A DNA stretch of 64,000 nt from Terriglobia bacterium (GTDB lineage: Bacteria > Acidobacteriota > Terriglobia > Terriglobales > Acidobacteriaceae), in contig JAIQFT010000014.1 in assembly GCA_020073185.1 (NCBI GenBank), positions 1-64,000 on the forward strand. Reading direction: 5' to 3'. Below, piece after piece: positions 1,540 through 19,936 of the stretch. The notes under the pieces were generated by a model. That model was not told where the DNA came from. It worked only from the letters and a program-made list of their open reading frames with translations, and searched no databases. A program made the translations under genes and the position numbers. Position 1 is the stretch's first letter. Each line of letters opens with the position of its first letter.

Positions 1540-1568
1540 TTGACGATCTCCCGGACATACTCTATTGT
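1540..1568 (+). promoter_or_regulatory. Sigma70-type promoter before the exosortase gene
   Basis: TTGACG at 1540-1545 and TATTGT at 1563-1568 are separated by exactly 17 bases, a good match to a housekeeping promoter. It lies about 85 bases before the preferred ATG of the exosortase-EpsI gene and would leave a leader of roughly 75 bases. The rest of 1297-1539 shows nothing recognisable. The call rests on consensus match only. Confidence 0.4.
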
Positions 1569-1651
1569 TCAGGCCTAGGGCGTCAAAAGAAGAGTTAGCC
1601 GGTGCAGAAAACCTGCATCGCGACCACGGGGCAGGGTATCGGGGAACCCGA

Positions 1652-3232
1652 ATGGCTGATACGTTCGCAGCTGGAGAACTCCAATCCGTGGTTGCGCCAA
1701 AATCTCAGGCTGGCAAGCTACAGTTCGCCCTTGGTCTCGGAGTGCTGATTGCCCTGCTCGCGTTCGTCTACTATCCCACTTTTAAATGGCTGGTTACGGA
1801 GATCTGGTGGCTGGATAAGGAGTATTCTCACGGCTTCCTTGTCCCGTTCATTGTCGCTTACCTGATATGGATCCGGCGCGGCTATCTGGCTAGTTTGCCG
1901 ACACGTCCGGCGCCGGTAGCCGGGAGCTTGGTCTTGCTTTTTAGCGCCGGCCTCCTTTTGGGCGGACGCGCCGGCGGCTTCCGCCAGGCGGAAGGATTTT
2001 CCTTCCTGTTTGTGCTCCCAGGGCTGGTTCTGTTCTTGTGGGGCTGGACCCACCTCAAAGCCCTCGCCTTGCCTCTGGCCTACGTGCAGTTCATGGTGCC
2101 GTGGATGGAGGATTTCATTGACCGCGTGCATTGGCCTTTCCAGTTGCTGTCAGCCGAGATTGGGGTCGGTGTTCTGCGCGTCTTCGGTTACCCGGTGTTT
2201 CACACCGGCAAGTACATAACACTGCCGGCCATCACACTTGAAGTGGCCCGCGAATGCAGCGGCCTGCGTTTCCTGATGTCGATTATTGCCCTGGGCATAC
2301 CGCTCGTGTACCTGACTCAGCGGAGTTGGAAGCGGGCCATCACGGTAATCCTCTCCGCGATTGCGATCGCGATTATAGCCAACGGGTTGCGCGTCGCACT
2401 GGTAGGTATGAGCGCGACCCGCTACGGGGAGTCGATGTTGCACGGTCCGTGGCACGTCTTTCAAGGCTGGTTCGTGTCACAGGTGGGAATCGTAGTCCTG
2501 TTCATCTTCAATTGGCTGGCGACCAGGAAAAAAGGGGACGACAGACCCAGACTGTACGAGCGCGCCGCGAGGCGTGCCGACGGTCGGAGCGAACCGTGGT
2601 TCCGGCATCTGATGGTCGCCGTCGTCTTCCTGGTCGTGTTTGGTTCTTGGCTTAACTACTATGCTGTGAGTGTCCCGGTGCCCTTGAAGCGCTCGTTCAC
2701 GTATTTTCCCGCCGAGATCGGCGGCTGGCGTGGTGGCGCCGTTCATTGGTTTGCTGGAGAGGACGCCTATCCTGGCACCGCTAGTGAACTGAGTCGCGTG
2801 TACCGCAACGCAGAGGGTAAAGCAGTCTATCTGTACGTCGGCTACTTCGACGCACAACGGCCCGGGAAAGCGATGATCAATGGCCGCGCAAATAACCCGT
2901 TGCGCGGGTCCGCAACCCAGTTATCGTTCAAGGTTGATGCCGCCACTCGTGATGCCATAGGCCTCAGCGACGTAAACGTATCAATTCCGATCTTGGGCGA
3001 CACGCCGTATGCCGCCGTGTACTGGTATCGTTTCCCGTCCGGCGCGGTAAAAGGCCGCTACCAGGCGAAGTTGACCGGGCTGATGAATGCGGTGCTGCAC
3101 AGGCATGACAATGCCGCCGTGATTGTTATCGCGGAACCACTGCCCCGCGATGTGGCCTCAGAGGCTGCCGTCGCTGATCTGCTCGCCTTCGCACGTGCCG
3201 CCACCCCCGTTGTTCGCGACTATATTCCCTAA
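1652..3232 (+). CDS. xrt: Exosortase-EpsI fusion protein
   Basis: This is a polytopic inner-membrane exosortase, a cysteine transpeptidase-like enzyme thought to cleave PEP-CTERM-type sorting signals, fused to a C-terminal EpsI (DUF3485) domain. With the ATG at 1652 (GGGGAA upstream) it has 526 residues. Multiple membrane helices fill about residues 22-290. The catalytic triad is visible as Cys202 in ARECSGLR, Arg247 in ANGLRVAL and a His in GPWHVFQGW (about 268). After a basic linker, residues 310-526 have one membrane helix and a periplasmic EpsI domain (AEIGGWRGG and later YVGYFDAQRPGK). A TTG at 1565 is in frame but has no ribosome binding site. Fused exosortase-EpsI genes usually lead EPS loci, as here. 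The exosortase subtype cannot be fixed by eye. Confidence 0.92.
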   Translation: MADTFAAGELQSVVAPKSQAGKLQFALGLGVLIALLAFVYYPTFKWLVTEIWWLDKEYSHGFLVPFIVAYLIWIRRGYLASLPTRPAPVAGSLVLLFSAGLLLGGRAGGFRQAEGFSFLFVLPGLVLFLWGWTHLKALALPLAYVQFMVPWMEDFIDRVHWPFQLLSAEIGVGVLRVFGYPVFHTGKYITLPAITLEVARECSGLRFLMSIIALGIPLVYLTQRSWKRAITVILSAIAIAIIANGLRVALVGMSATRYGESMLHGPWHVFQGWFVSQVGIVVLFIFNWLATRKKGDDRPRLYERAARRADGRSEPWFRHLMVAVVFLVVFGSWLNYYAVSVPVPLKRSFTYFPAEIGGWRGGAVHWFAGEDAYPGTASELSRVYRNAEGKAVYLYVGYFDAQRPGKAMINGRANNPLRGSATQLSFKVDAATRDAIGLSDVNVSIPILGDTPYAAVYWYRFPSGAVKGRYQAKLTGLMNAVLHRHDNAAVIVIAEPLPRDVASEAAVADLLAFARAATPVVRDYIP

Positions 3233-3321
3233 TACGAAGTGCAATGCCTTTCGCCGGACGCCTGCGTGGGCCCCGTTCAGATTCTCCCATCGAATTCCTT
3301 TCCCTCTGTGACTGAAGTAAT

Positions 3322-3337
3322 CTCCACGTTAGTGGAG
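3322..3337. other. Perfect hairpin CTCCAC-GTTA-GTGGAG
   Basis: A 6-bp stem with a 4-base loop lies in the 240-bp gap between the exosortase gene and the RraA-like gene. No T-run follows it, so a classical intrinsic terminator is not supported. It could mark transcript processing or weak termination. The rest of the gap shows nothing recognisable. Confidence 0.3.
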
Positions 3338-3473
3338 GGTCCGTGCTACTCTCCCGACAGTAGTGGGTTTTCACCTCTGACGAGCGCCCTTGCGCTGCTC
3401 GAATCAGTGTCCGAGATGTGAACATAGAGTTGCAGCCAGAGCAGGAGTATCTTGAATTAGCAATGGTGCGGCA

Positions 3474-4214
3474 ATGACAGCGACGAAACCGAAATCGGCA
3501 GAGATGTTTCCTGGGCCGGGCTTTCGCGTAAAGCCGGACTTTGACCGCCTCGACAGCGGGTTCATGCAACAGTTTGCGGACTTCGCTACCCCGGATATCT
3601 CCGATCTGCTCAACCGCCTGTATGCGGTTGATCCGTCGATTAAGTGTCTCACCGGCGCGCACCACCGGCTGTGCGGACCGGCGTGTACGGTGAAGGTATT
3701 TCCGGGCGACAACCTGATGGTGCACAAAGCGCTCGATGTGGCCAAACCGGGGGACATCGTTGTAGTCGATGCGCATGGCTCGTCGATGAACGCGGTATTG
3801 GGCGACCTGATCTCGACTAAGGCAAAACACCGCAAGATCGCGGGTTTCGTGGTGGACGGATTCATCCGCGACCTGCCCGACATTCAGCAGCTGGATTGGC
3901 CTGTTTTCGCCCGTGGGGCGACACCCATCGGACCTCTGCACCGCGGCCCTGGCGAGATCAACTACCCCATCTGCTGTGGTGGAGTGGTGGTCCACCCTGG
4001 CGATATGATCGTGGGCGACGGCGCCGGCGTAGTCGTCATCCCGCAGGAAATTGCAGGCGATTTGCTGCAGCGGCTGCGCCATCAAAAGGCCAGCATGGCA
4101 GCCTACCTGGCGGGAGTCAAACGCGGCGATTTCTCCAACGATTGGGTAGACAGGGTCCTGCAGGAAGCTGGGTTCACCGTCGGCGCGGCATCCGCCAAGG
4201 CACAAGGCAGTTAG
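3474..4214 (+). CDS. RraA/HMG-aldolase family protein
   Basis: This is a 246-residue member of the RraA-like superfamily. The family contains class II pyruvate aldolases (4-hydroxy-4-methyl-2-oxoglutarate aldolase, oxaloacetate decarboxylase) and the RNase E regulator RraA. The metal and substrate motif is present: GD at 110-111 and, after IAGFVVDGF, Arg132-Asp133. The following region (ARGATPIGP, then VVVHPGDMIVGDGAGVVVIP) is the family core barrel. Retention of the Arg-Asp pair favours an enzyme over a pure regulator. The preferred ATG follows a weak purine stretch. It starts a + strand cassette with two ATP-grasp ligases and a beta-hydroxyacid dehydrogenase inside an EPS locus, so it may supply or remove a hydroxy- or oxo-acid building block. 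That role is inference. Confidence 0.85.
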   Translation: MTATKPKSAEMFPGPGFRVKPDFDRLDSGFMQQFADFATPDISDLLNRLYAVDPSIKCLTGAHHRLCGPACTVKVFPGDNLMVHKALDVAKPGDIVVVDAHGSSMNAVLGDLISTKAKHRKIAGFVVDGFIRDLPDIQQLDWPVFARGATPIGPLHRGPGEINYPICCGGVVVHPGDMIVGDGAGVVVIPQEIAGDLLQRLRHQKASMAAYLAGVKRGDFSNDWVDRVLQEAGFTVGAASAKAQGS

Positions 4215-4281
4215 CGCACCACGAACCGTCAGCCAAGCTGGCAATGCGTAGCCCTGACGATGAGTTCCGAAGAGAGAAGCT

Positions 4282-5400
4282 GTGGCGTCTCTTAATTACT
4301 GGCGATATCCCGGCCTGCTCAGAGTTCTACGTCGCGCCTATCGTGCGCGGGTCTGGTATCGGGAGCGGCAGCCCGCGCTGCATCGGGCATGGGAACATCG
4401 ATCTAACTTTTACGAGCAAGTGTGGCGGGAGGCTGCCAGCCAGCTGGGCGCCAGCGTCACCCCTCTGGGCAATGACATCCTGGAAATCCGCTGCGGCGAA
4501 GCCTGCACCCGGGTGCGGCGGAACTCCACTCCCATTGACGATCCGGTCACCCTGGCAGTTGCGCTCTACAAGCCGCTGGTGCACCGTCTTCTCGCCCAAC
4601 GGGGGCTGAGAGTTCCCACTCACCTTGAGTTCACCCTTCCTGACGTTGCCAAAGCGATCACCCTGCTGGAAAGCAACGGAGGGGAATGGGTAGTCAAACC
4701 GGCCGGCAGCAGCGCCGGGTCGGGAGTCACTACCGGGATAAACACTGGTTCCGACTTGGCCCGCGCCGCCGCCGCCGCCGCTGCTTACGGTTCCAGCCTG
4801 CTGCTGGAACAGCAGGTGGCAGGGGATGTTTTCCGGCTGCTCTACCTGGAAGGTAAGTTGCTTGATGCCATTTTGCGCAAACCTCCGACGGTAGTCGCCG
4901 ACGGCAGGTCCACGCTTCGCAAGCTCGTGTCCCTGGAGAACGAAGCCCGGCTAAGAGCGGGTACCAACAATGCCGAGGCGCTGATCTCTCTCGATCTGGA
5001 TGTTAGTCAAACTCTCCAGAAGCAGGGGTTCTCGCTCTCTTCGGTGCCCAAAGAAGGAACGGCAGTCAAGCTCAAGACGGTCATCAACGAGAACTCGGGA
5101 AGTGAAAATGTTCCCGCGCTGAACCTGTTGTGCGAATCCATCATCGAAGACGGCGCGGCGGCGGTCTCGGCGGTGGGAGCGCGGTTGGCCGGCGTAGATG
5201 TGGTTACGCCGGATGCGGGCATGTCGTTGGCGAGATCCGGAGGAGTCATTCTGGAAGTCAATACTCCCCCCGGCTACCAGTACCACTATCACCGGCAGGG
5301 CGGCAGGTCCGCGATCGCCGTGCCCATCTTGGAACACCTTCTCCGCATCGGTCAAAACGACGAACATTTCGCGTCGGAAAGGGTTAATCTCAAGCCTTGA
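4282..5400 (+). CDS. ATP-grasp ligase, cyanophycin-synthetase-like
   Basis: This is a 372-residue ATP-grasp carboxylate-amine ligase starting at GTG 4282, with AGAGAG upstream. ATP-grasp features are visible: WVVKPAGSSAGSGVT (about 135-150, nucleotide-binding Lys and Gly loop), LLLEQQVAGD (about 178) and the metal-binding end GGVILEVNTPPGYQYH (about 327). The arrangement GVDVVTPD then EVN resembles the ATP-grasp module of cyanophycin synthetase, but the Mur-ligase half is missing. Such enzymes activate a carboxylate as acyl phosphate and join it to an amine. It is followed after 25 bases by a second ATP-grasp gene. The substrate is unknown; an amino acid linked to a sugar or acyl precursor of the EPS is a reasonable guess. 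Confidence 0.85.
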   Translation: MASLNYWRYPGLLRVLRRAYRARVWYRERQPALHRAWEHRSNFYEQVWREAASQLGASVTPLGNDILEIRCGEACTRVRRNSTPIDDPVTLAVALYKPLVHRLLAQRGLRVPTHLEFTLPDVAKAITLLESNGGEWVVKPAGSSAGSGVTTGINTGSDLARAAAAAAAYGSSLLLEQQVAGDVFRLLYLEGKLLDAILRKPPTVVADGRSTLRKLVSLENEARLRAGTNNAEALISLDLDVSQTLQKQGFSLSSVPKEGTAVKLKTVINENSGSENVPALNLLCESIIEDGAAAVSAVGARLAGVDVVTPDAGMSLARSGGVILEVNTPPGYQYHYHRQGGRSAIAVPILEHLLRIGQNDEHFASERVNLKP

Positions 5401-5425
5401 ATAAAACGCCCGGGGCTTAACCACG

Positions 5426-6706
5426 ATGAGCAGCGTCCAGCAGAGACCGTTGCGTCCGCCCGCCATCATTCTTGGCGGCGCCGGCAACGCCCTCTCGGTC
5501 GCACGGAGCCTGAGTAGCGCCGGCATCGAGGTGTACGCAATCAACCATCCGCAAGCGGTGGTTAGGCATTCCCGCTTGTGCAAGTGGATCGACCTGCCCA
5601 AGACCGCCGGTGATGACGTAGAGGCTTGGACCGCGTACCTGGTGGGGAGAGAGTCCGATCACCTGCGAGGGGCGGTCCTGCTGACCGCTAGCGATGAGGG
5701 AATCGAACTCATTGCCAAGCACCGGCGGCAACTCACCGAGAAGTTCACGCTCGATGTATCCGATCCGGAAGCGCAGCTTTGCATGCTGAATAAGCTCTCC
5801 ACCTACCGGGCCGCGCAGGCAGCGGGCGTGCCGACTCCGAAGTTCTGGGTCGCTGACAGCCGAGCGCAGATCGAGCAATTAAGGGGCGACTTGACCTTTC
5901 CCTTGATTGTGAAACCGCTGTTCAGCCACAAGGCTCAGAAAGTTGGGGATAAGCTCGTGCGCGTCGAGGAGTTCGACGAGCTGATCCATGCCTTTGAGTC
6001 CATGCAGCAGGCAGGCATCCGCACGTTCCTGGTGGAAGTAATCCCTGGGCTCGATGACAAGTTGTGCAGTTACTACACTTATCTCGATGAGAACGGCGAG
6101 AGCGTGTTCGATTTCACGAAGCGGATCATTCGAAGATATCCGCTCAACGTGGGACTGGGTTGCTACCACGTGACTGATCGGGTGCCCCAGGTCAAGGAAC
6201 TGTCGCTGAGGCTGCTGCGGCAGGTTGGGCTGCGTGGAATCGCCAACGTCGAATTCAAGCTCGACGAAAGGGATGGTCAACTGAAGTTGATAGAGTGCAA
6301 CGCCCGGTTCACGGCCGCGGATTGCCTGGTCGCCGCCGCCGGCGTGAATATCTCCTTATATGTTTACAATCGGTTGACTGGCCAGGCGCAGCCGCCCCCG
6401 CAGGATTACCGCGTCGGACTAAGGCTGTGGTACCCGATCGACGATTTTCGGGCCTACCGGCAACTGCACGGAATGGGGCTGCTGAGTTTCCGCAGTTGGA
6501 TAGGCAGCATCCTGCACCCGCAGACTTTCCCGTTTTTCCGCTGGTATGATCCTCTGCCTGCTATCGTCAAAGGGGGCCGCTTCGTCGGAGACTATTTGTA
6601 TCGTCATCTCGGTCTGGCGAAACTTACAGCGCAGCGAGATCCAGGTTCTGTCCGCTGCGAGGCCCCCTGCGAGGCCGCGGAAATCCGACGGCACGCGAAG
6701 CGGTAA
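5426..6706 (+). CDS. ATP-grasp carboxylate-amine ligase
   Basis: This is a 426-residue ATP-grasp protein. The N-terminal preATP-grasp domain has a Rossmann-like loop (LGGAGNALSVARSL, about 15-28). The ATP-grasp domain shows FPLIVKPLFSHKA (about 155) and ends with the metal-binding ANVEFKLDE and LIECNARF (about 274-294). The build is like D-aspartate ligase and related carboxylate-amine ligases found in surface-polymer clusters. The C-terminal 110 residues are aromatic and basic (WYPIDDFRAY, FPFFRWYDP) and could contact the membrane or a lipid-linked substrate. It lies 25 bases after the first ATP-grasp gene and just before the dehydrogenase gene, so the set is probably one operon. The substrate cannot be read from sequence. 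Confidence 0.85.
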   Translation: MSSVQQRPLRPPAIILGGAGNALSVARSLSSAGIEVYAINHPQAVVRHSRLCKWIDLPKTAGDDVEAWTAYLVGRESDHLRGAVLLTASDEGIELIAKHRRQLTEKFTLDVSDPEAQLCMLNKLSTYRAAQAAGVPTPKFWVADSRAQIEQLRGDLTFPLIVKPLFSHKAQKVGDKLVRVEEFDELIHAFESMQQAGIRTFLVEVIPGLDDKLCSYYTYLDENGESVFDFTKRIIRRYPLNVGLGCYHVTDRVPQVKELSLRLLRQVGLRGIANVEFKLDERDGQLKLIECNARFTAADCLVAAAGVNISLYVYNRLTGQAQPPPQDYRVGLRLWYPIDDFRAYRQLHGMGLLSFRSWIGSILHPQTFPFFRWYDPLPAIVKGGRFVGDYLYRHLGLAKLTAQRDPGSVRCEAPCEAAEIRRHAKR

Positions 6707-6726
6707 GCCCGCCGGTGGCCAATATC

Positions 6727-7629
6727 ATGACTGAACCAACGATAGGCATTCTGTATCCGGGCGAAATGGGTAGCAGCTTCGGGAAACTACTGGCCGAAAG
6801 CGGCTTTCCTGTGGTCACGACCACCCAGGGCAGGAGCGCCCGCACGCAGAGCCTTTGTCACGAGGCGGGCATGACGGTGCTTGCTTCGATTCCTGAAGTG
6901 CTCCATCGTTCGGCTATCGTGATCTCCCTGGTCACCCCTGCCGCTGCGCTGGAGGTAGCCCGGCAGGTGTCTGCTCAGGTGCCAAGTTCGTCCAGACGGC
7001 TGATCTACGTTGATGCGAACTCCATTTCCCCCAGCACTGCGCTTCAGATCGCGGGGGTGCTGGGGTCCGGCCCCGTTGACTTCGTGGACGCGTCCATTCT
7101 CGGCCTGGCGTCCCTGCTGCGGCAGCGCGGCAGGCTGTATTTGAGCGGATCGCGCGCGTCGGAAGTCTCCAACGTTTTTAGTCGGTTCATGCGGGTCAAG
7201 ATCACCGGCGAAGCGCCCGGGCAAGCCTCCGCTTTCAAGATGATCATCGCAGGAATACCTAAAGGACTGGTCGGCTTGTTCGTGGAAACCATGCTGTTCG
7301 CCCGCGACATGGGCCTGCTTCGCGAGGCCCTGGAAGCGTGCAATGAGCTTTATTGCGGGGTAATGGAGGTCGCGCAGCGGATGCTGCCAACCTACCCGCA
7401 GCACGCTGCGAGACGGAGCGAAGAACTGCGCGAGATCGAAGCCACAATGTTGCTGAATGGTTCCACCCCACGGATCCTGCGCGCGGTATTGGAAGTGACT
7501 GCGGACTTGGCCAAGGTGGATTGGGTAAAAGGGCGAGAACCGGCGCAGGGTACAGTTGCCGAAATCCTCGAAGAGATTCATCGCAGCCGGACCCGCGCCT
7601 CGAGCGCGGAGAGCGCTACGCGCCTCTGA
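6727..7629 (+). CDS. 3-hydroxyisobutyrate-dehydrogenase-like enzyme
   Basis: This is an NAD(P)-dependent beta-hydroxyacid dehydrogenase-like protein of 300 residues from ATG 6727 (GGTGG 8 bases upstream). A GTG at 6715 is also in frame. The N-terminal Rossmann domain opens with IGILYPGEMGSS, the form of the family GxGxMG motif with P-G, and continues with VISLVTP and IYVDANSISP (substrate loop). The family Lys is in SAFKMIIAG (about 168), but the usual Asn four residues later is not there. The all-helical C-terminal domain resembles DUF1932 (6-phosphogluconate dehydrogenase-like). It is 20 bases downstream of the second ATP-grasp gene. With the RraA-like aldolase it could interconvert the hydroxyacid that the ligases attach. 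Confidence 0.8.
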   Translation: MTEPTIGILYPGEMGSSFGKLLAESGFPVVTTTQGRSARTQSLCHEAGMTVLASIPEVLHRSAIVISLVTPAAALEVARQVSAQVPSSSRRLIYVDANSISPSTALQIAGVLGSGPVDFVDASILGLASLLRQRGRLYLSGSRASEVSNVFSRFMRVKITGEAPGQASAFKMIIAGIPKGLVGLFVETMLFARDMGLLREALEACNELYCGVMEVAQRMLPTYPQHAARRSEELREIEATMLLNGSTPRILRAVLEVTADLAKVDWVKGREPAQGTVAEILEEIHRSRTRASSAESATRL

Positions 7630-7765
7630 CTGTTTCCGTGCGAATACATCTGGCCCGGTCGATGTGCAGGGTAGTACACTGCGGAAGTTCCCCCTCAAAT
7701 CTGTGAAGCTGATTGGGACGGATTCTGAGCACGCCCTGTTCTCCGGAGTTTCGCGGGATCGGTCA

Positions 7766-9091
7766 ATGAAGCAGCGGGACGAATCCGAGCGCGAAAAAGT
7801 GCCCGCGGCGGTCCCCAGAGGGGAACCGAGCAATTGCCCCGGCGCGGCTCCGCCGGTCTGCGACCACCCCCCTATCAGGCTTCTCATCGTCGAGAGCGGG
7901 CGTGGCGCCGGCGGCTCCACCATGTCTCTTTACTACCTGCTCAAGGCCCTAGACCGGACCCGGTTCGATCCGCTGGTCGCGTTCTATTTCGCCAATGACG
8001 GGCCTGACACGGAGCGGCTCAGGCTGGCTGCCCCGATTGCGTTTCTTTCGACCAGAACTGCTCGCGCCGAATCGAAGTTGCTGAGGAGGTTATTCCCTTC
8101 TCTGTTGATTCGAGGCGTCCGGAAGCTCATTGTCAGACCTTGGAACATGCTGGCGTCCGGCGTGGCGGCACTGTGGCGATTGCTGCGATTGATGCGGACA
8201 AAGTCCATTCAGTTGGTATTGCTGAACAACGATGTTCACTACCACGTCCCGGCAGTGCTGGCCGCGAAGCTGAGTGGCGTCCCATGCGTCTGCCGCAAGG
8301 CGGGTGGCATCGGCGAGGGAAGGCATGTCAAGCGATGGATCACGCCGTGGGTAAACCTCTTCATCAGCATTTCCCTGGCAACCCACCTAGACCAGATCGC
8401 TAACAACCCTGGCACACGGAAGGTGACGACCGTCTTTACCGGGATCGACCTCGACAGATTTGCCGCCAGAGCGCGCCCCGAACTGCGCGCCGAACTCGGA
8501 CTGCCCCCGGGCAAGAAAGTCGTCGCCAGTCTGGCCCGCCTCACTCCCGGCAGAGGGCAACAGGAACTGCTGCACGCCGCCCCGCGAATCGTGCAGGGCC
8601 ACGAAAATGTGGTCTTCCTGTTTGTGGGAAGTGAATCGCCGAGCGCTGTCTCCTACCTCAGTTCGCTGCGAGCCGAAGCAGACCGCATGGGCATTGGCGA
8701 CAAGGTGATCTTTCCCGGCTGGCGTACCGACGTGCCCGACATTCTTGCGCTGGTCGATGTTGTGGTGCAGTGTCCGAACACGATCATCGAGGGTCTTTCA
8801 GTCGTGGTGCTGGAAGCCATGGCAGCGGGCAAGCCGGTTGTAGTCACTGACAGTGGAGGACTGCCGGACGCAGTACATAGTGGCCGGACCGGGTTTGTCG
8901 TTCCGCGTGGCGACGCCAGCAAACTGGCTGAGGCAGTGCTGAGTATTCTGCAGGATGAGGCGCTCGCTCAACGCATGGGAGCGGCAGGCCGGCAGCGGGT
9001 TGAGGCTGACTTCAACAATGTCAGGAACGTGAAGAAAGTCGAGAAGCTGCTGGAGCAGTGTGTGACGGAAGCCTCGGGCGGTCATCGATAG
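7766..9091 (+). CDS. GT4-family glycosyltransferase
   Basis: This is a retaining GT-B glycosyltransferase of 441 residues from ATG 7766. Longer frames upstream overlap the preceding gene and lack a ribosome binding site. The N-terminal 37 residues are a hydrophilic Pro/Arg-rich tail, then the Rossmann domain begins with IRLLIVESGRGAGGSTMSL. The donor-binding half shows VASLARLTPGRGQQELL and the E-x7-E motif in EGLSVVVLEAMAAGKPVVVTD, where GT4 enzymes bind the nucleotide sugar. It is the last + strand gene of the first block; its stop is 31 bases from the stop of a convergent GT4 gene. It likely adds one sugar of the EPS repeat on the cytoplasmic face. The specificity is unknown. Confidence 0.9.
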   Translation: MKQRDESEREKVPAAVPRGEPSNCPGAAPPVCDHPPIRLLIVESGRGAGGSTMSLYYLLKALDRTRFDPLVAFYFANDGPDTERLRLAAPIAFLSTRTARAESKLLRRLFPSLLIRGVRKLIVRPWNMLASGVAALWRLLRLMRTKSIQLVLLNNDVHYHVPAVLAAKLSGVPCVCRKAGGIGEGRHVKRWITPWVNLFISISLATHLDQIANNPGTRKVTTVFTGIDLDRFAARARPELRAELGLPPGKKVVASLARLTPGRGQQELLHAAPRIVQGHENVVFLFVGSESPSAVSYLSSLRAEADRMGIGDKVIFPGWRTDVPDILALVDVVVQCPNTIIEGLSVVVLEAMAAGKPVVVTDSGGLPDAVHSGRTGFVVPRGDASKLAEAVLSILQDEALAQRMGAAGRQRVEADFNNVRNVKKVEKLLEQCVTEASGGHR

Positions 9092-10286: not shown

Positions 10287-11440
10287 GCCTGCACCTCATC
10301 CATGACAGCGCTTTGCCCTCTCATCACCCGCAGGAAGAGCTGCTCGAAGCGCAGCATGGCGGCGTCGGGGGCGTGATTTTCCACGTAGTACTGACGTGCG
10401 TTGTGCGACTGCGTGCGCCACAGGTCGGGAGAATTCAGCAGCGTGGCGATGCCCTTAAACAGGTTTTCCTTGTCCGGGGCGGCCATGCCCAGCCCGCGGG
10501 AGGCAATCAGATCATCAGGATCAATCGTCGACACCACCGGGACGCCGTAGCTCCAAGCCTCCAGAAAGGTATTGGGGAATCCCTCGAAGGCCGAAGTGCA
10601 GCACAGCAGAGCAGCCCGGCCATACAACTCCGACATTCGGTCACGCGGCACACTGCCGTGCACAATTACATTGGGTAGGCTGCGTGCCCGGGCCAGGATC
10701 GCCTGCGAGTAGGCATTCTCGCAGTCGGGTTTCCCGGCGATTTCGAAGGTAACATCGGGCAAGGCGGCGGCCAGATCCAGCAGCACTTCCAGCCGCTTGA
10801 CTTCAGCAATTCTGCCCACCCAAAGAACGCGTCGCGAACCACCGCGTGGCGGGGCAGCCGCCGGACACTCATCCGCCGTGGCGCCCGCGCAGGGCATGGG
10901 GAGCACAATCGCGCCCAGGCCGAAGCCCTGCCTCAGCATGTGCCGCTGCTTGTTGGTCTGCACGATGATGCGGTCGGCGTGGCGGATGCCGTAGCGATAA
11001 AAAAGACGGTCCTTAACCTTGGGCATGTCCGGCAAGGCGGGATCACACTCCGGATCGCTGGCCGAGGAATAAACGAATTTCCGGCCGTTCTGGCGGCACC
11101 AGAGCGCCACCTGCCCGGTGACGTACTCGGCGCAGTTGTGGTAGTACAGCGCTGCGTCGGCGCGCTTCAGCGCCGCATTCAGGCTGCTCCAGCGAGGGTG
11201 GAAAAACCTCAGCCCGGGCAGTCCAGCGTCGCTGCGGCACATCTTGATGACGCGCACGCCATCGATCTTGACTTCGTCGTCCTGCCCCTCATCCCAGGTC
11301 AACAGGGAAACCTGGTGGCCGCGCGCCGCCAGCCAGCGCGCCATGAAGCTGGTCTGCCGTTCCACGCCGCCAAAATGTCCACTGTGGCCGCCATTAATGC
11401 TGCCGAAAGCGAAATGGGCGACGATGCTGATCCCTTCCAT
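10283..11440 (-). CDS. GT4-family glycosyltransferase
   Basis: This is a 385-residue retaining GT-B transferase. The N-terminal domain has FGGVERQTSFMARWLAARGH (acceptor loop and first helix) and ALYYHNCAEY. The C-terminal donor domain begins at RRVLWVGRIAEVKRLEVLLD and has the acidic pair in SAFEGFPNTFLEAWSYGVPV. GGAG lies 6 bases before the ATG. It overlaps the following GT4 gene by 4 bases and is only 10 bases after the polysaccharide deacetylase gene. The role is sugar transfer during EPS repeat assembly; donor and acceptor are unknown. Confidence 0.9.
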   Translation of the reverse strand: MEGISIVAHFAFGSINGGHSGHFGGVERQTSFMARWLAARGHQVSLLTWDEGQDDEVKIDGVRVIKMCRSDAGLPGLRFFHPRWSSLNAALKRADAALYYHNCAEYVTGQVALWCRQNGRKFVYSSASDPECDPALPDMPKVKDRLFYRYGIRHADRIIVQTNKQRHMLRQGFGLGAIVLPMPCAGATADECPAAAPPRGGSRRVLWVGRIAEVKRLEVLLDLAAALPDVTFEIAGKPDCENAYSQAILARARSLPNVIVHGSVPRDRMSELYGRAALLCCTSAFEGFPNTFLEAWSYGVPVVSTIDPDDLIASRGLGMAAPDKENLFKGIATLLNSPDLWRTQSHNARQYYVENHAPDAAMLRFEQLFLRVMRGQSAVMDEVQA

Positions 11441-11450
11441 AGCAGCTCCG

Positions 11451-12533
11451 CTAGGTGTTGCCCCGGTTCAGCAAGGCTAACAAGGATTGCTTGGCGCGGG
11501 CGATAGCGGCTGTGATGCCGCTGACAACGGCGAGCAACTCGGTTTCGCTCCCCGCTAGCGGTAGCGCGATGCGCTGCAGAGTCATGGGGTCGGCCCCTGT
11601 GCGGTTCGTGCCCTCGTTGACGGTGACGGCTGCCATATACCCGCATTCGCGGACGATCTCCACGGTGCGAGCATTGTAACTTCCATTGGGATAGGCCAGA
11701 TACCGGCATGGGCGCTTGGTGTGCGCCTCGATCATCCGCTTAGAACGAAGAAGTTGGTCGCGCGCAACACCATCCTCCACCCGACCCAGGAGAACGTGAT
11801 CCACGGTGTGGCTTTCAAAAGAGAGCCCGGTGCCGGCCAGAGCTTCGATCTCCTCCCAACTGAGCAGCGCCGTCCAGGGGTCGTCTTCGAAGACGTCAGC
11901 CAAGCGGCGTCCGCTCTCCGCCTCCAAGGTTGCGGCGATCTGTTCCAACTCTTCCCGCATCTCGCCGTCTTGCCGAACGACCGCCTTGGCGGCGTCGCGG
12001 AGGCGCTGGTAGGACTGGCGCAGTTCGTTCCGGCCGGAGGCGGAGATGCGAACTTTGTCGTTGCCGATCTGGAACTCGTGATCGTCATCGCCGGCATGCT
12101 GCAGGGCATAATCCAATCGATCAACCCAGAAGGGCTGTCGCCGTTGCACGTGGCCGGCGGTCACAAAGATGGTGGCGGGCACACCGAAGCGGCGCAGCAC
12201 CGGCCAGGCTCCCGTGACATTGTTGCGATATCCATCGTCAAAGGTGACCACCAGAGAGTTCGGGTGGAAAGGCCGGTTACCGGCCAACATCTCCACCGCG
12301 TCGTCCAGGGAAACGAACTTGTAGTAGCGGGTGAGAAGCCGTAACCACTGCTCGAGCGTCTGCGGGTCCAATTGCGGCCGCAGCGGCGCCCAGCAAGCTT
12401 GCCCATTCGCGGGCGCTGCGGTGGCATGCAGCATGAGGATGGTAACGCGCTTGCGGTGCAGAAAACGCCACAGGTGGAAAAATCCCGTCCACCGCAAGAG
12501 CGCCTTGATGATAGCCCGTATACTCACACTCAC
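11451..12533 (-). CDS. NodB-type polysaccharide deacetylase
   Basis: This is a 360-residue carbohydrate esterase family 4 (NodB homology) protein. The metal and catalytic motif VTFDDGYRNN lies at about 96-105, and the second metal motif is a variant, SHTVDHVLL (H-x3-H, with Asp where many members have Pro later). LAYPNGSYN (about 286) is the third conserved block. The N-terminus has a basic amphipathic stretch (about 1-30) that may tether it to the inner membrane. The family removes N- or O-acetyl groups; here the substrate is likely an EPS amino sugar. The GTG start overlaps the stop of the acyltransferase gene upstream (GTGA), suggesting coupled production of a deacetylase and an N-acyltransferase. 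Exosortase-linked EPS loci usually contain such a deacetylase. Confidence 0.9.
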   Translation of the reverse strand: MSVSIRAIIKALLRWTGFFHLWRFLHRKRVTILMLHATAAPANGQACWAPLRPQLDPQTLEQWLRLLTRYYKFVSLDDAVEMLAGNRPFHPNSLVVTFDDGYRNNVTGAWPVLRRFGVPATIFVTAGHVQRRQPFWVDRLDYALQHAGDDDHEFQIGNDKVRISASGRNELRQSYQRLRDAAKAVVRQDGEMREELEQIAATLEAESGRRLADVFEDDPWTALLSWEEIEALAGTGLSFESHTVDHVLLGRVEDGVARDQLLRSKRMIEAHTKRPCRYLAYPNGSYNARTVEIVRECGYMAAVTVNEGTNRTGADPMTLQRIALPLAGSETELLAVVSGITAAIARAKQSLLALLNRGNT

Positions 12534-16578: not shown

Positions 16579-18138
16579 CTAGCGAATGACACTTTCAATG
16601 ATGGCGCCGATTTGCTCGTTCAATAGGCCACAGAAATCCGATAGCGTGGCGGCGAATATCACCATGCGAAAAGCAAACAGCGACTTGATGACCTTCTTAT
16701 TCAATCCGTTACCATAGGCGCCCCACCACAGGATGAGGGTCGGGGTGCGGAAGCGAAACAGCTCGCGCAACATGACCCCGGCCCATCCCAAGATTCGTCC
16801 GTGGACGGCCTTGACCTTAACCCTCTCGCTGCCTCCGGCTTGGGCTGGCCAAGCCAGCTTGTCGGATGCGTAGACGAGGATTTCGGCGTTGGGCAGGGCC
16901 GCGGATAGCGATTCACTATCAATCTTCAATTCCCCGAGAGAACTCGGCGGCTCCGCCAAGACGACGGTGAGACGGCGGTACTCCTTCCGCTTCGCCATAA
17001 GCGCAAGCATGTCGGTCTGGAGCGCCGCCAAACGGGTCCAGCGCCGGCTCAAACGCGACTCCGGGGGAAGCCGCCGCACTCCCTCGACGCAGTGATAGGT
17101 TTCGGCCAACCTGCCCGCACCACCACCTTCGCGTTCAGCGATGTCGCGAACCTTGGATTCCATGTAAGAGAGTTTGAATTGCGAGGCATAAACGGACATC
17201 AGCCGCAGCTTCTCTTGGAACACGTCCGTAATGTCTTCCTGGCCATCAACCAGACGCGTGCCACAGTCGGTCAGGGCAGCACGAATTTGCTTTGCATGTT
17301 CGACATCGGCAGCGTAGGGGAGTTCCTCATACATGGCCACTGGAACATTGGGAAACCGGTCACGAGCCTGGGCGAGCATCAGAAGACACGCGCTCCGGGT
17401 AGTGCGATGGTCGACGTGGTCGCCCAGCCCCATCGGCATCCAGATCTCGTCCGGCGCCAGACGGCTCAGAAGCTGGGTTAGCTGCTCCGCGATCCGCGTT
17501 ACATCTTCCGGATTTGGGAACAAGTCGATGAACGAATGGGGGGCCCTGCTGAACTCTTCCACCATGGCAGGAGACCATTGCTCGGGCGGGCAGTGACGAA
17601 GTGGAGCATCGGTCCAATCGAGAGAACGATGCTCCGCCCCAACCAGCCTGGCTGCCAGCGCCGATTCCCGTTCCCGCAGGCGGGTAATCTCGTCAATGTC
17701 CAGAAAATTCCGCTTCAAAAGCAAGTAGGTAGTGAAGTTGCTCCATTTAACCAGCGACAGGATTGTGATCCGGCATTGTCCCCGGCGGTGAAGGAGGCGA
17801 CCTCCGACGCTGATCACAGCGTCATCCATGTGCGGCTCGATGACGACGAGGTGCGGCTGGCGAGGCGCCGCAAGCGGAGGGATCAGCTCCAGGATTGCCG
17901 CTTCATGCCACTTCAAAAGGCGCTCTCTGGCGCCCGGGTAGAGCTGCTCCAACTCGGCCACTGTCTTGCGTCCGTCTACGCTCTCATAAAGAGGGACTTC
18001 CTCGGGCAACAACTCCAGAAGGGGGCGTCGGGAGATCATGAAGAAAAGCTCCCGGCCACGCCGTTGATTGTGCGGCCGGAGTTGCGGGACGTGTCTGGCG
18101 ATGTCGTCCAGTCTCATGCCCATGCCTACCAGGAACAT
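16579..18138 (-). CDS. PIG-L family deacetylase with PqqD-like N-domain
   Basis: This is a 519-residue protein. The central domain is a zinc-dependent PIG-L/LmbE N-acetylglucosamine deacetylase: EPHMDDAVIS (102-110, with Ala where Glu is common) and the second metal motif HVDH at 241-244. Such enzymes deacetylate GlcNAc conjugates. Residues about 9-85 look like a PqqD-type peptide-chaperone domain (MRLDDIARHVPQLRP, then ESVDGRKTVAEL). The C-terminal 150 residues (from RRLTVVLAEPPSS) are an extra domain of unknown type with aromatic and hydrophobic stretches. An ATG at 18114 fits the usual PqqD-like start and may be the true one. It is divergent from the DUF362 gene across a 244-bp region with a quasi-palindrome. 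Confidence 0.85.
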   Translation of the reverse strand: MFLVGMGMRLDDIARHVPQLRPHNQRRGRELFFMISRRPLLELLPEEVPLYESVDGRKTVAELEQLYPGARERLLKWHEAAILELIPPLAAPRQPHLVVIEPHMDDAVISVGGRLLHRRGQCRITILSLVKWSNFTTYLLLKRNFLDIDEITRLRERESALAARLVGAEHRSLDWTDAPLRHCPPEQWSPAMVEEFSRAPHSFIDLFPNPEDVTRIAEQLTQLLSRLAPDEIWMPMGLGDHVDHRTTRSACLLMLAQARDRFPNVPVAMYEELPYAADVEHAKQIRAALTDCGTRLVDGQEDITDVFQEKLRLMSVYASQFKLSYMESKVRDIAEREGGGAGRLAETYHCVEGVRRLPPESRLSRRWTRLAALQTDMLALMAKRKEYRRLTVVLAEPPSSLGELKIDSESLSAALPNAEILVYASDKLAWPAQAGGSERVKVKAVHGRILGWAGVMLRELFRFRTPTLILWWGAYGNGLNKKVIKSLFAFRMVIFAATLSDFCGLLNEQIGAIIESVIR

Positions 18139-18382: not shown

Positions 18383-19936
18383 ATGGGAGATCCCACGGCT
18401 GAGAGTGCAGCAAAGGCCAGGCTTGACCGGCATGTTAGCGTCAGCTTCGCCTCCCAGGCATCCTACCCCTCGACACCGCCGTTTCATCCGGCTCACCCCT
18501 ACCCCGAGTACCCCTTTGCCGGGCAGCTCGGCTCGGAGCCGAACTCCGCCTACGACGCCGCGCGGGAAAGCCTTCACCTGCTCGGTCTCGATCGGGAGAA
18601 CTATGGAACACCGGCCTGGAATCCGCTGGGCGAGATTGTGCGCCCCGGCGACTGCGTCCTGTTGAAGCCGAATTTCGTCAAAGAGTCGCGCACCGACGTG
18701 CTCAGCGAATGGATTCAGGTGATCACGCACGGCTCGGTCATTCGTGCCGTCGCCGATTATGTTTACATTGCGCTGCGGGGGCACGGGCGCATCATCGTTG
18801 CCGACGGCCCCCAGACCGATTCCGATTTTGACGCGATTCGCGAGCTGACCGGGCTGCGCGTGCTGCAGGATTTTTACCGCCAGTCCGCCGGCTTCCAGTT
18901 GGAGGTTTACGACCTGCGCAACGAACACTGGATCGAGCGCGACGGCGTCTATGTCGACCGCGAGCGCTTGGCGGGCGATCCCGCAGGCACGGTGGCGGCT
19001 GATCTTGGCGCCCGCACGCATCTGAGCGACATCGGCTCCAATAAGTATTACGGCGCCTTCTATGATATTGAGGAGACCAATCGCCATCATTCCAACGGAC
19101 ATCATGAGTACGCGTTTTGCCGGACGCCGCTGCTGGCTGATGTGGTGATCCATCTCCCCAAGCTCAAGACGCATAAGAAGTGTGGCGTCACCATCAATCT
19201 CAAAGGCCTAGTCGGTTTGAATGGCAACAAGAACTGGCTCCCGCATTACATTTTTGGAACGCCCAAAAACAAGGGGGACCAGTTCGCTGACCCATCCGTG
19301 GTGCATGCCATTGAAAACGCCCTCGTCCGCTGGGCCAAAAAACTGTTGCTGGGCGACTCATGGGTGGCGCGGGTAGTGGCCCGCAAGCTGAAATCACATG
19401 CCTACGGCGTTTTCGGCAAGACCAGTAATACCGTGCGGAGCGGAAACTGGTATGGCAACGACACGGTCTGGCGGATGGCACTTGACCTGGCTGCCGTCCT
19501 AACCTTTGCCGACGCAGACGGACGCTTGCACGATTCCCCCCAAAGGCGTTTCTTTTCCGTCGTGGACGGGATCATTGCCGGCGAAGGCAACGGGCCGATG
19601 GAAGCGGACGCCCTTCCCACCGGCATCATCGTCTCCGGCAGTTCGCCCGTCTCGGTGGACGCGGTCTGCGCGCGCCTCATGGGCTTCGACTACCGCAAGC
19701 TGCCGATCATCGCCAACGCCTTCCGGCCCACACCCTGGCCCTTTGTGCAACACCGCTACGACGAAATACGGGTCTTCAGCAACCGCAGCGACGTGGATAC
19801 GGCTCTGCTCTCCGATCCGACGCGGAGGATATTCCAGTTCAGACCTCATTTCGGATGGGTAGGCCGGATTGAACTCCCAACTGAAGCTGCGAGCAGCACT
19901 ACCCCTGCGAAGACTCTGGCGTCAGTTCAGGATTGA
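18383..19936 (+). CDS. DUF362 domain protein
   Basis: This is a 517-residue protein of the DUF362 family, recognisable from CVLLKPNFVKES (about 92-103), IIVADGPQTDSDF, IHLPKLKTHKKCGVTINLKG (about 256-275), SVVDGIIAGEGNGPM and the end motif SPVSVDAVCARLMGFDY. The ferredoxin-like Cys cluster found in some relatives is absent. DUF362 proteins have no agreed activity; several occur in EPS loci beside sugar-modifying genes. It has its own orientation within the - strand block. Its last 38 bases overlap the end of the convergent PaaK-like gene. The start follows an A/T-rich, weak ribosome binding site. Confidence 0.8.
   Translation: MGDPTAESAAKARLDRHVSVSFASQASYPSTPPFHPAHPYPEYPFAGQLGSEPNSAYDAARESLHLLGLDRENYGTPAWNPLGEIVRPGDCVLLKPNFVKESRTDVLSEWIQVITHGSVIRAVADYVYIALRGHGRIIVADGPQTDSDFDAIRELTGLRVLQDFYRQSAGFQLEVYDLRNEHWIERDGVYVDRERLAGDPAGTVAADLGARTHLSDIGSNKYYGAFYDIEETNRHHSNGHHEYAFCRTPLLADVVIHLPKLKTHKKCGVTINLKGLVGLNGNKNWLPHYIFGTPKNKGDQFADPSVVHAIENALVRWAKKLLLGDSWVARVVARKLKSHAYGVFGKTSNTVRSGNWYGNDTVWRMALDLAAVLTFADADGRLHDSPQRRFFSVVDGIIAGEGNGPMEADALPTGIIVSGSSPVSVDAVCARLMGFDYRKLPIIANAFRPTPWPFVQHRYDEIRVFSNRSDVDTALLSDPTRRIFQFRPHFGWVGRIELPTEAASSTTPAKTLASVQD

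Follow-up and report, generated by a model that had tools for sequence, protein, structure and literature searches.

Amino acid and hydroxy acid decoration of polysaccharides shapes surface charge and recognition, and the enzymes for rare decorations are mostly unknown. Among the described systems nearest to the locus reported here, GarL is an aldolase that yields tartronate semialdehyde and GarR is the reductase for that product. In HMG/CHA aldolase, functional roles have been assigned to Gly-101, Arg-123, Asp-124, and His-75 (PMC5065237). Active-site roles have also been described for cyanophycin synthetase, including those of the P-loop His267 and the primer-binding Glu215 (PMC9427784), and for exopolysaccharide loci there is the PEP-CTERM/exosortase system (PMC1569441). 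We analyzed a stretch of 64,000 nucleotides from the genome of a soil bacterium of the Acidobacteriaceae (Terriglobia bacterium, GCA_020073185.1, contig JAIQFT010000014.1, positions 1 to 64,000 of the forward strand), hereafter the window, in which an RraA-like gene, two ATP-grasp ligase genes, and a dehydrogenase gene form a cassette (Table 1). These enzyme families are each known, while their combination appears undescribed. In the open-access papers covered, which leave out most subscription journals, we found no report joining RraA, ATP-grasp, and exopolysaccharide and none of WbqC with ATP-grasp, and DUF1932 appeared only in unrelated topics.

Table 1. Positions of the cassette genes, of other features of the window, and of the fifth gene found in relatives.
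Feature	Position	Strand	Size	Remark
Exosortase W with EpsI-type C-terminal domain	1565..3232	+		upstream context; exosortase W model
Gene 1, RraA-like, class II pyruvate aldolase/decarboxylase type	3474..4214	+	246 aa	PF03737
Gene 2, ATP-grasp ligase 1	4282..5400	+	372 aa	GTG start; single-domain; cyanophycin synthetase/GshAB-like
Ligase-ligase junction	5401..5425	+		site of the fifth gene in relatives, empty here
Gene 3, ATP-grasp ligase 2	5426..6706	+	426 aa	CPSase-like
Gene 4, DUF1932/6-phosphogluconate-dehydrogenase-like NAD(P) dehydrogenase	6715..7629	+	304 aa	length from GTG
GT4 glycosyltransferase	7556..9091	+		downstream context; coordinates of the longest ORF, start codon probably more internal
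PIG-L deacetylase	16579-18138	-	519 aa	PIG-L domain at residues 98-251
DUF362 protein	18383-19936	+	517 aa	in the polysaccharide locus
Fifth gene, locus L007	14942-15985
Fifth gene, locus L015	11083-12114
Fifth gene, locus L013	about 10925-11950

The cassette genes are separated by gaps of 67 and 25 bases, followed by 8 bases if gene 4 starts at its GTG or 20 if it starts at an alternative ATG at 6727. An earlier note on this DNA had described four plus-strand genes between an exosortase-EpsI gene and a glycosyltransferase gene; its coordinates and placement were confirmed, with the last gap of 20 bases holding only for the ATG start, and the upstream protein scored 499.5 bits against the exosortase W model (cut-off 425). 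The family calls for the four products also stood, based on profile and structure-sequence matches, but the description of two different ATP-grasp folds did not, as the ligases represent two subfamilies of one fold, ATP-grasp. Intact orthologs at 51-80% identity in other genomes indicate that the four are not chance ORFs. The GC content of the cassette (0.59-0.62) is the same as that of its surroundings, so there is no sign of very recent import, and a foreign base composition was rejected. A consensus scan of window positions 3000-8000 gave no sigma-70-like promoter and no excess of terminator-like sites over chance.

Gene 1 matched PF03737 (E 1.2e-48; 165.6 bits, cut-off 24.5) and subfamily NF004850 (234.2 bits, cut-off 231). 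Its identification as a LigK/PcmE HMG/CHA aldolase equivalog was rejected, the score of 121.1 bits being well under the cut-off of 304.5. Gene 1 nevertheless aligned without gaps over 129 residues to the HMG/CHA aldolase of Pseudomonas putida F1 (3NOJ), ending at gene 1 residue 193, so that the second metal ligand, Glu-199 of the neighbouring subunit, lies outside the comparison. The pyruvate-site Gly, Asp, Arg, Asp, and His are kept, with H84, G110, D111, R132, and D133 at 3noj positions 75, 101, 102, 123, and 124; R132 and D133, the equivalents of the pyruvate-site Arg-123 and the metal-binding Asp-124, are invariant across four orthologs. Whereas the aldolase belongs to an aromatic degradation operon, gene 1 lies in a polysaccharide locus. 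Its orthologs are 75-82% identical, the highest conservation within the cassette.

Gene 2 matched no Pfam family at 0.001, but did match cyanophycin synthetase and GshAB in their ATP-grasp domains. Cyanophycin synthetase is its nearest relative among solved structures, with about 280 residues aligning to the G domain of CphA1. Against cyanophycin synthetase models gene 2 reached 148-151 bits (cut-offs 850-877); the match covered only positions 170-475 of the profile (147.8 bits against a cut-off of 850). When numbering was mapped by eye via the homolog 7lgn, gene 2 was found to keep the equivalents of Lys220, Lys261, Arg309, and Arg323 and the E-x-N metal site, and with these the ATP-binding Lys and two carboxylate-binding Arg of CphA1. 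Residues K97, K139, R185, R199, E325, and N327, aligned to cyanophycin synthetases, are invariant in four orthologs, which are 51-58% identical to the window protein. The Glu215 position is Ala in gene 2, and the His267 position is Ala in gene 2 and Gly or Ala in its orthologs. Since both positions have changed while other site residues are kept, sequence comparison identifies gene 2 as a carboxylate-amine ligase of the cyanophycin synthetase ATP-grasp type and not as a cyanophycin synthetase, an assignment also rejected on its length of 372 aa, single domain, and low score. The kinship would allow ligases 1 and 2 to build a polyamide chain, such as a short cyanophycin-like or poly-amino-acid polymer of the extracellular matrix. 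We consider this highly improbable, because ligase 1 lacks the N and Mur-ligase domains of CphA1 as well as the P-loop His and primer-binding Glu, and falls far below the cyanophycin synthetase cut-offs. An AlphaFold2 model of gene 2 (3 sequences) had a mean pLDDT of 41 and was not used.

Gene 2 also matched the N-acetylglutaminylglutamine synthetase model (E 1.1e-33, 116.6 bits, cut-off 569) and the GshAB model (E 1.1e-29, 103.4 bits, cut-off 425). It shares an ATP-grasp branch with these enzymes and GshF, but lacks their acetyltransferase or GshA domain. These matches would suit a cassette that makes a free small peptide-like metabolite, an osmolyte, chelator, or signal in the style of N-acetylglutaminylglutamine or glutathione, and merely shares the polysaccharide locus; this alternative is weighed below with the genomic context.

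Gene 3 gave weak matches to CPSase-like and ATP-grasp models, including a weak full-length similarity to PRK12767 (CPSase-like; 61.6 bits, below the cut-off of 218). PRK12767-type ligases occur in polysaccharide loci and on Priestia plasmids, whereas gene 3 is joined to RraA, ligase 1, and DUF1932 genes. Its residues K163, E204, E276, E290, and N292 are kept in orthologs, which are 59-63% identical. Full-strength matches were confined to G000, G034, G166, and G189 among 249 genomes searched, with distant relatives in 23 further genomes (best-hit E about 1e-34 to 1e-46). Polysaccharide loci of Acidobacteriota often contain such distant relatives but not the other cassette genes: in 20 Acidobacteriota regions of 13-20 kb around them, blastp at 1e-5 detected no homolog of RraA, ligase 1, or DUF1932.

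Gene 4 matched PF09130 (DUF1932; 39.3 bits, cut-off 25), PF03446 (NAD_binding_2; 31.5 bits, cut-off 21), and the structure 1i36 (E 3.7e-24). Its sole NCBIfam matches were weak ones to tartronate semialdehyde reductase models (22-23 bits, cut-offs 341-397). As in GarL and GarR, the cassette pairs a class II pyruvate aldolase type with a beta-hydroxyacid dehydrogenase; however, gene 1 comes from an unrelated aldolase family, the cassette lacks a catabolic setting, and the gene 4 match is weak. Orthologs of gene 4 are 60-63% identical. The usual catalytic Lys position, K175 in a G-x-x-S-A-x-K stretch, is kept in the window, G034, and G166 and is Arg in G189, so activity may vary among orthologs. 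With catalytic residues mostly kept, the cassette likely encodes active enzymes.

The order RraA, ligase 1, ligase 2, DUF1932 recurs in three further genomes of Acidobacteriaceae (G034, G166, and G189), loci L007, L012, and L013 matching the window, with gaps mostly below 20 bases or overlaps. An Edaphobacter MAG contig carries RraA and then ligase 1, where it ends. The conserved synteny on which the earlier note had made its proposal depend was therefore found. Across samples that overlap, so that co-occurrence counts are not independent, close orthologs of the four genes were found only together. For ligase 1, the most specific of the four genes, the sole close match beyond the window's genome in 150 family genomes was in G034 (53%), with matches at 30% in G097, G104, and G139, two of these three in frames longer than 900 aa. 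A two-row ligase 1 profile at E <= 1e-50 detected 4 of 298 order genomes and 3 of 396 phylum genomes, all of them either the genome of the window itself or members of a single further genus. A pattern-based scan with the ligase 1 alignment, which covered one genome per species for 84,980 species and detects fairly close relatives only, returned two loci (the G166 contig and the Edaphobacter MAG); the same type of genome-contig scan with the gene 2 sequence alone found no relative. When 200 genomes of the family were sampled, only G000, G034, and G166 had RraA matches at E <= 1e-50; these three also had the DUF1932 matches at 61% or more, and two further genomes had DUF1932 matches at 29-31%. 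The cassette is absent from three more genomes of the genus to which the window belongs. In genus g35 an empty-site comparison failed, as ten other genomes also lack the flanking sugar transferase, and the polysaccharide locus there therefore seems to be gained or lost in one piece.

On plasmids, RraA, DUF1932, and ligase-2-like genes were each found often; four of five plasmid regions inspected had no other cassette member annotated, and the fifth was unannotated. RraA-like proteins about 40% identical to gene 1 are very common elsewhere, for example on plasmids, without such ligases annotated, and plasmid searches gave the same picture for DUF1932 proteins. This distribution would fit ligases that decorate a glycan while RraA and the dehydrogenase act separately, for example in keto acid recycling or the breakdown of unused precursor. 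We regard such a division as decidedly unlikely, given that close RraA and DUF1932 orthologs occur only where the ligases occur in the family sample, and that RraA is the most strongly conserved member of the cassette. The four genes are a real, conserved but rare unit. They very likely act in one pathway, given that they keep their order, lie close together, and co-occur exclusively.

All three relatives that were read through carry a fifth gene (341-347 aa) between the two ligases, which is close to its neighbours or overlaps them in L007, L012/L015, and L013. Its copies are 78-80% conserved among the three. Because this gene is missing from the window's genome, the pathways of the window and its relatives may differ. 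The protein had no match in Pfam (best E 0.22), the PDB (best E 0.43), or NCBIfam, none on plasmids, and, among 200 genomes of the order, none outside these three. From motifs alone, an H-x-D (H115, D117) followed by the conserved histidines H195 and H199, one might guess that it could be an Fe(II)/2-oxoglutarate oxygenase. A single-sequence AlphaFold2 model (mean pLDDT 36) was not used, and the similarity between its C-terminal end and the N-terminal end of the window PIG-L protein was too weak to keep (hhalign probability 7.6%).

In every genome where it was found, the cassette lies inside a polysaccharide locus, and these loci share glycosyltransferases, a sugar-phosphate transferase, and PIG-L or other deacetylases. 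In the relatives it comes after genes for a PglD-like acetyltransferase and the sugar-phosphate transferase, in a locus that also holds WbqC, PIG-L, YdjC, and glycosyltransferase genes. The window neighbourhood encodes a polysaccharide deacetylase, two GNAT/FemAB-like proteins, a PIG-L protein, a PaaK-like ligase, and another sugar transferase. With polysaccharide genes around the window cassette that are unlike those around the relatives' cassettes, the context does not point to any one acceptor. Two types of polysaccharide locus thus house the cassette, and the exosortase adjacency appears incidental rather than part of the set. Although the window cassette adjoins an exosortase W gene, it is not linked to one elsewhere: no exosortase was present in the stretches read on either side of the relatives' cassettes, and the exosortase homologs of G034, G166, and G189 are on other contigs. 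The earlier note's assignment to an exosortase EPS locus consequently holds for the window and not for these three genomes.

Occurrence in two kinds of locus also means that the cassette is not tied to one polymer, as a free metabolite would predict. Yet its presence within polysaccharide loci in all genomes found, the similar setting of the order's distant ligase 2 relatives, and the lack of an accompanying transporter or regulator in the stretches read argue against a free product, which we judge unlikely.

Genomic context and enzyme type instead point to the cassette adding an amide-linked small acid group to a glycan, our best reading, with a probability approaching even. We infer each reaction, their order, the acceptor, and the product. 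The cassette would be a compact biosynthetic unit residing in variable Acidobacteriaceae polysaccharide loci. Gene 1 would perform metal-dependent pyruvate-enolate chemistry (aldol or oxaloacetate-type decarboxylation) on a small oxo or hydroxy acid, which gene 4 would reduce or oxidize; by analogy with GarL/GarR, a glycerate-like acid is one guess. Gene 2 would use ATP to activate a carboxylate and couple this to an amino-acid amine, as in the related GshF and cyanophycin synthetase domains. Gene 3 would form a second amide, most likely onto an amino sugar precursor with an amine freed by a deacetylase; the PIG-L and other deacetylase genes close by suggest that the acceptor amine is on a sugar, and in Priestia and Cytobacillus, too, ligase-2-like genes have PIG-L and GT4 neighbours. 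The outcome would be a glycan unit carrying a small (acyl-)amino-acid group. The fuller proposal, in which the aldolase, dehydrogenase, and two successive ATP-grasp ligases build this group for exopolysaccharide and the orphan enzyme modifies it in Granulicella-like relatives, is possible and put forward tentatively. Since the genes travel together, one could express the pathway and directly identify what it makes, which could yield functions for a DUF1932 protein, a Pfam-less ATP-grasp branch, and the matchless fifth protein.

Several other arrangements were observed in passing. The window PIG-L deacetylase has long additions on either side of its PIG-L domain, and the DUF362 gene lies on the strand opposite to its neighbours. 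The Priestia and Cytobacillus plasmid loci L039 and L040 carry PIG-L, GT4, ligase-2-like, and kinase-like genes in succession; spore-coat genes are close to the Priestia row. Loci L053, L059, and L061 are polysaccharide-type loci with a tandem pair of ligase-2-like genes and sugar transferase genes close by. In L052, L055, and L063, a ligase-2-like gene adjoins one encoding a protein that matches both the FemAB-like protein and the polysaccharide deacetylase of the window, where these gene types are unfused, and a PaaK-like ligase gene is also close in two of the three.
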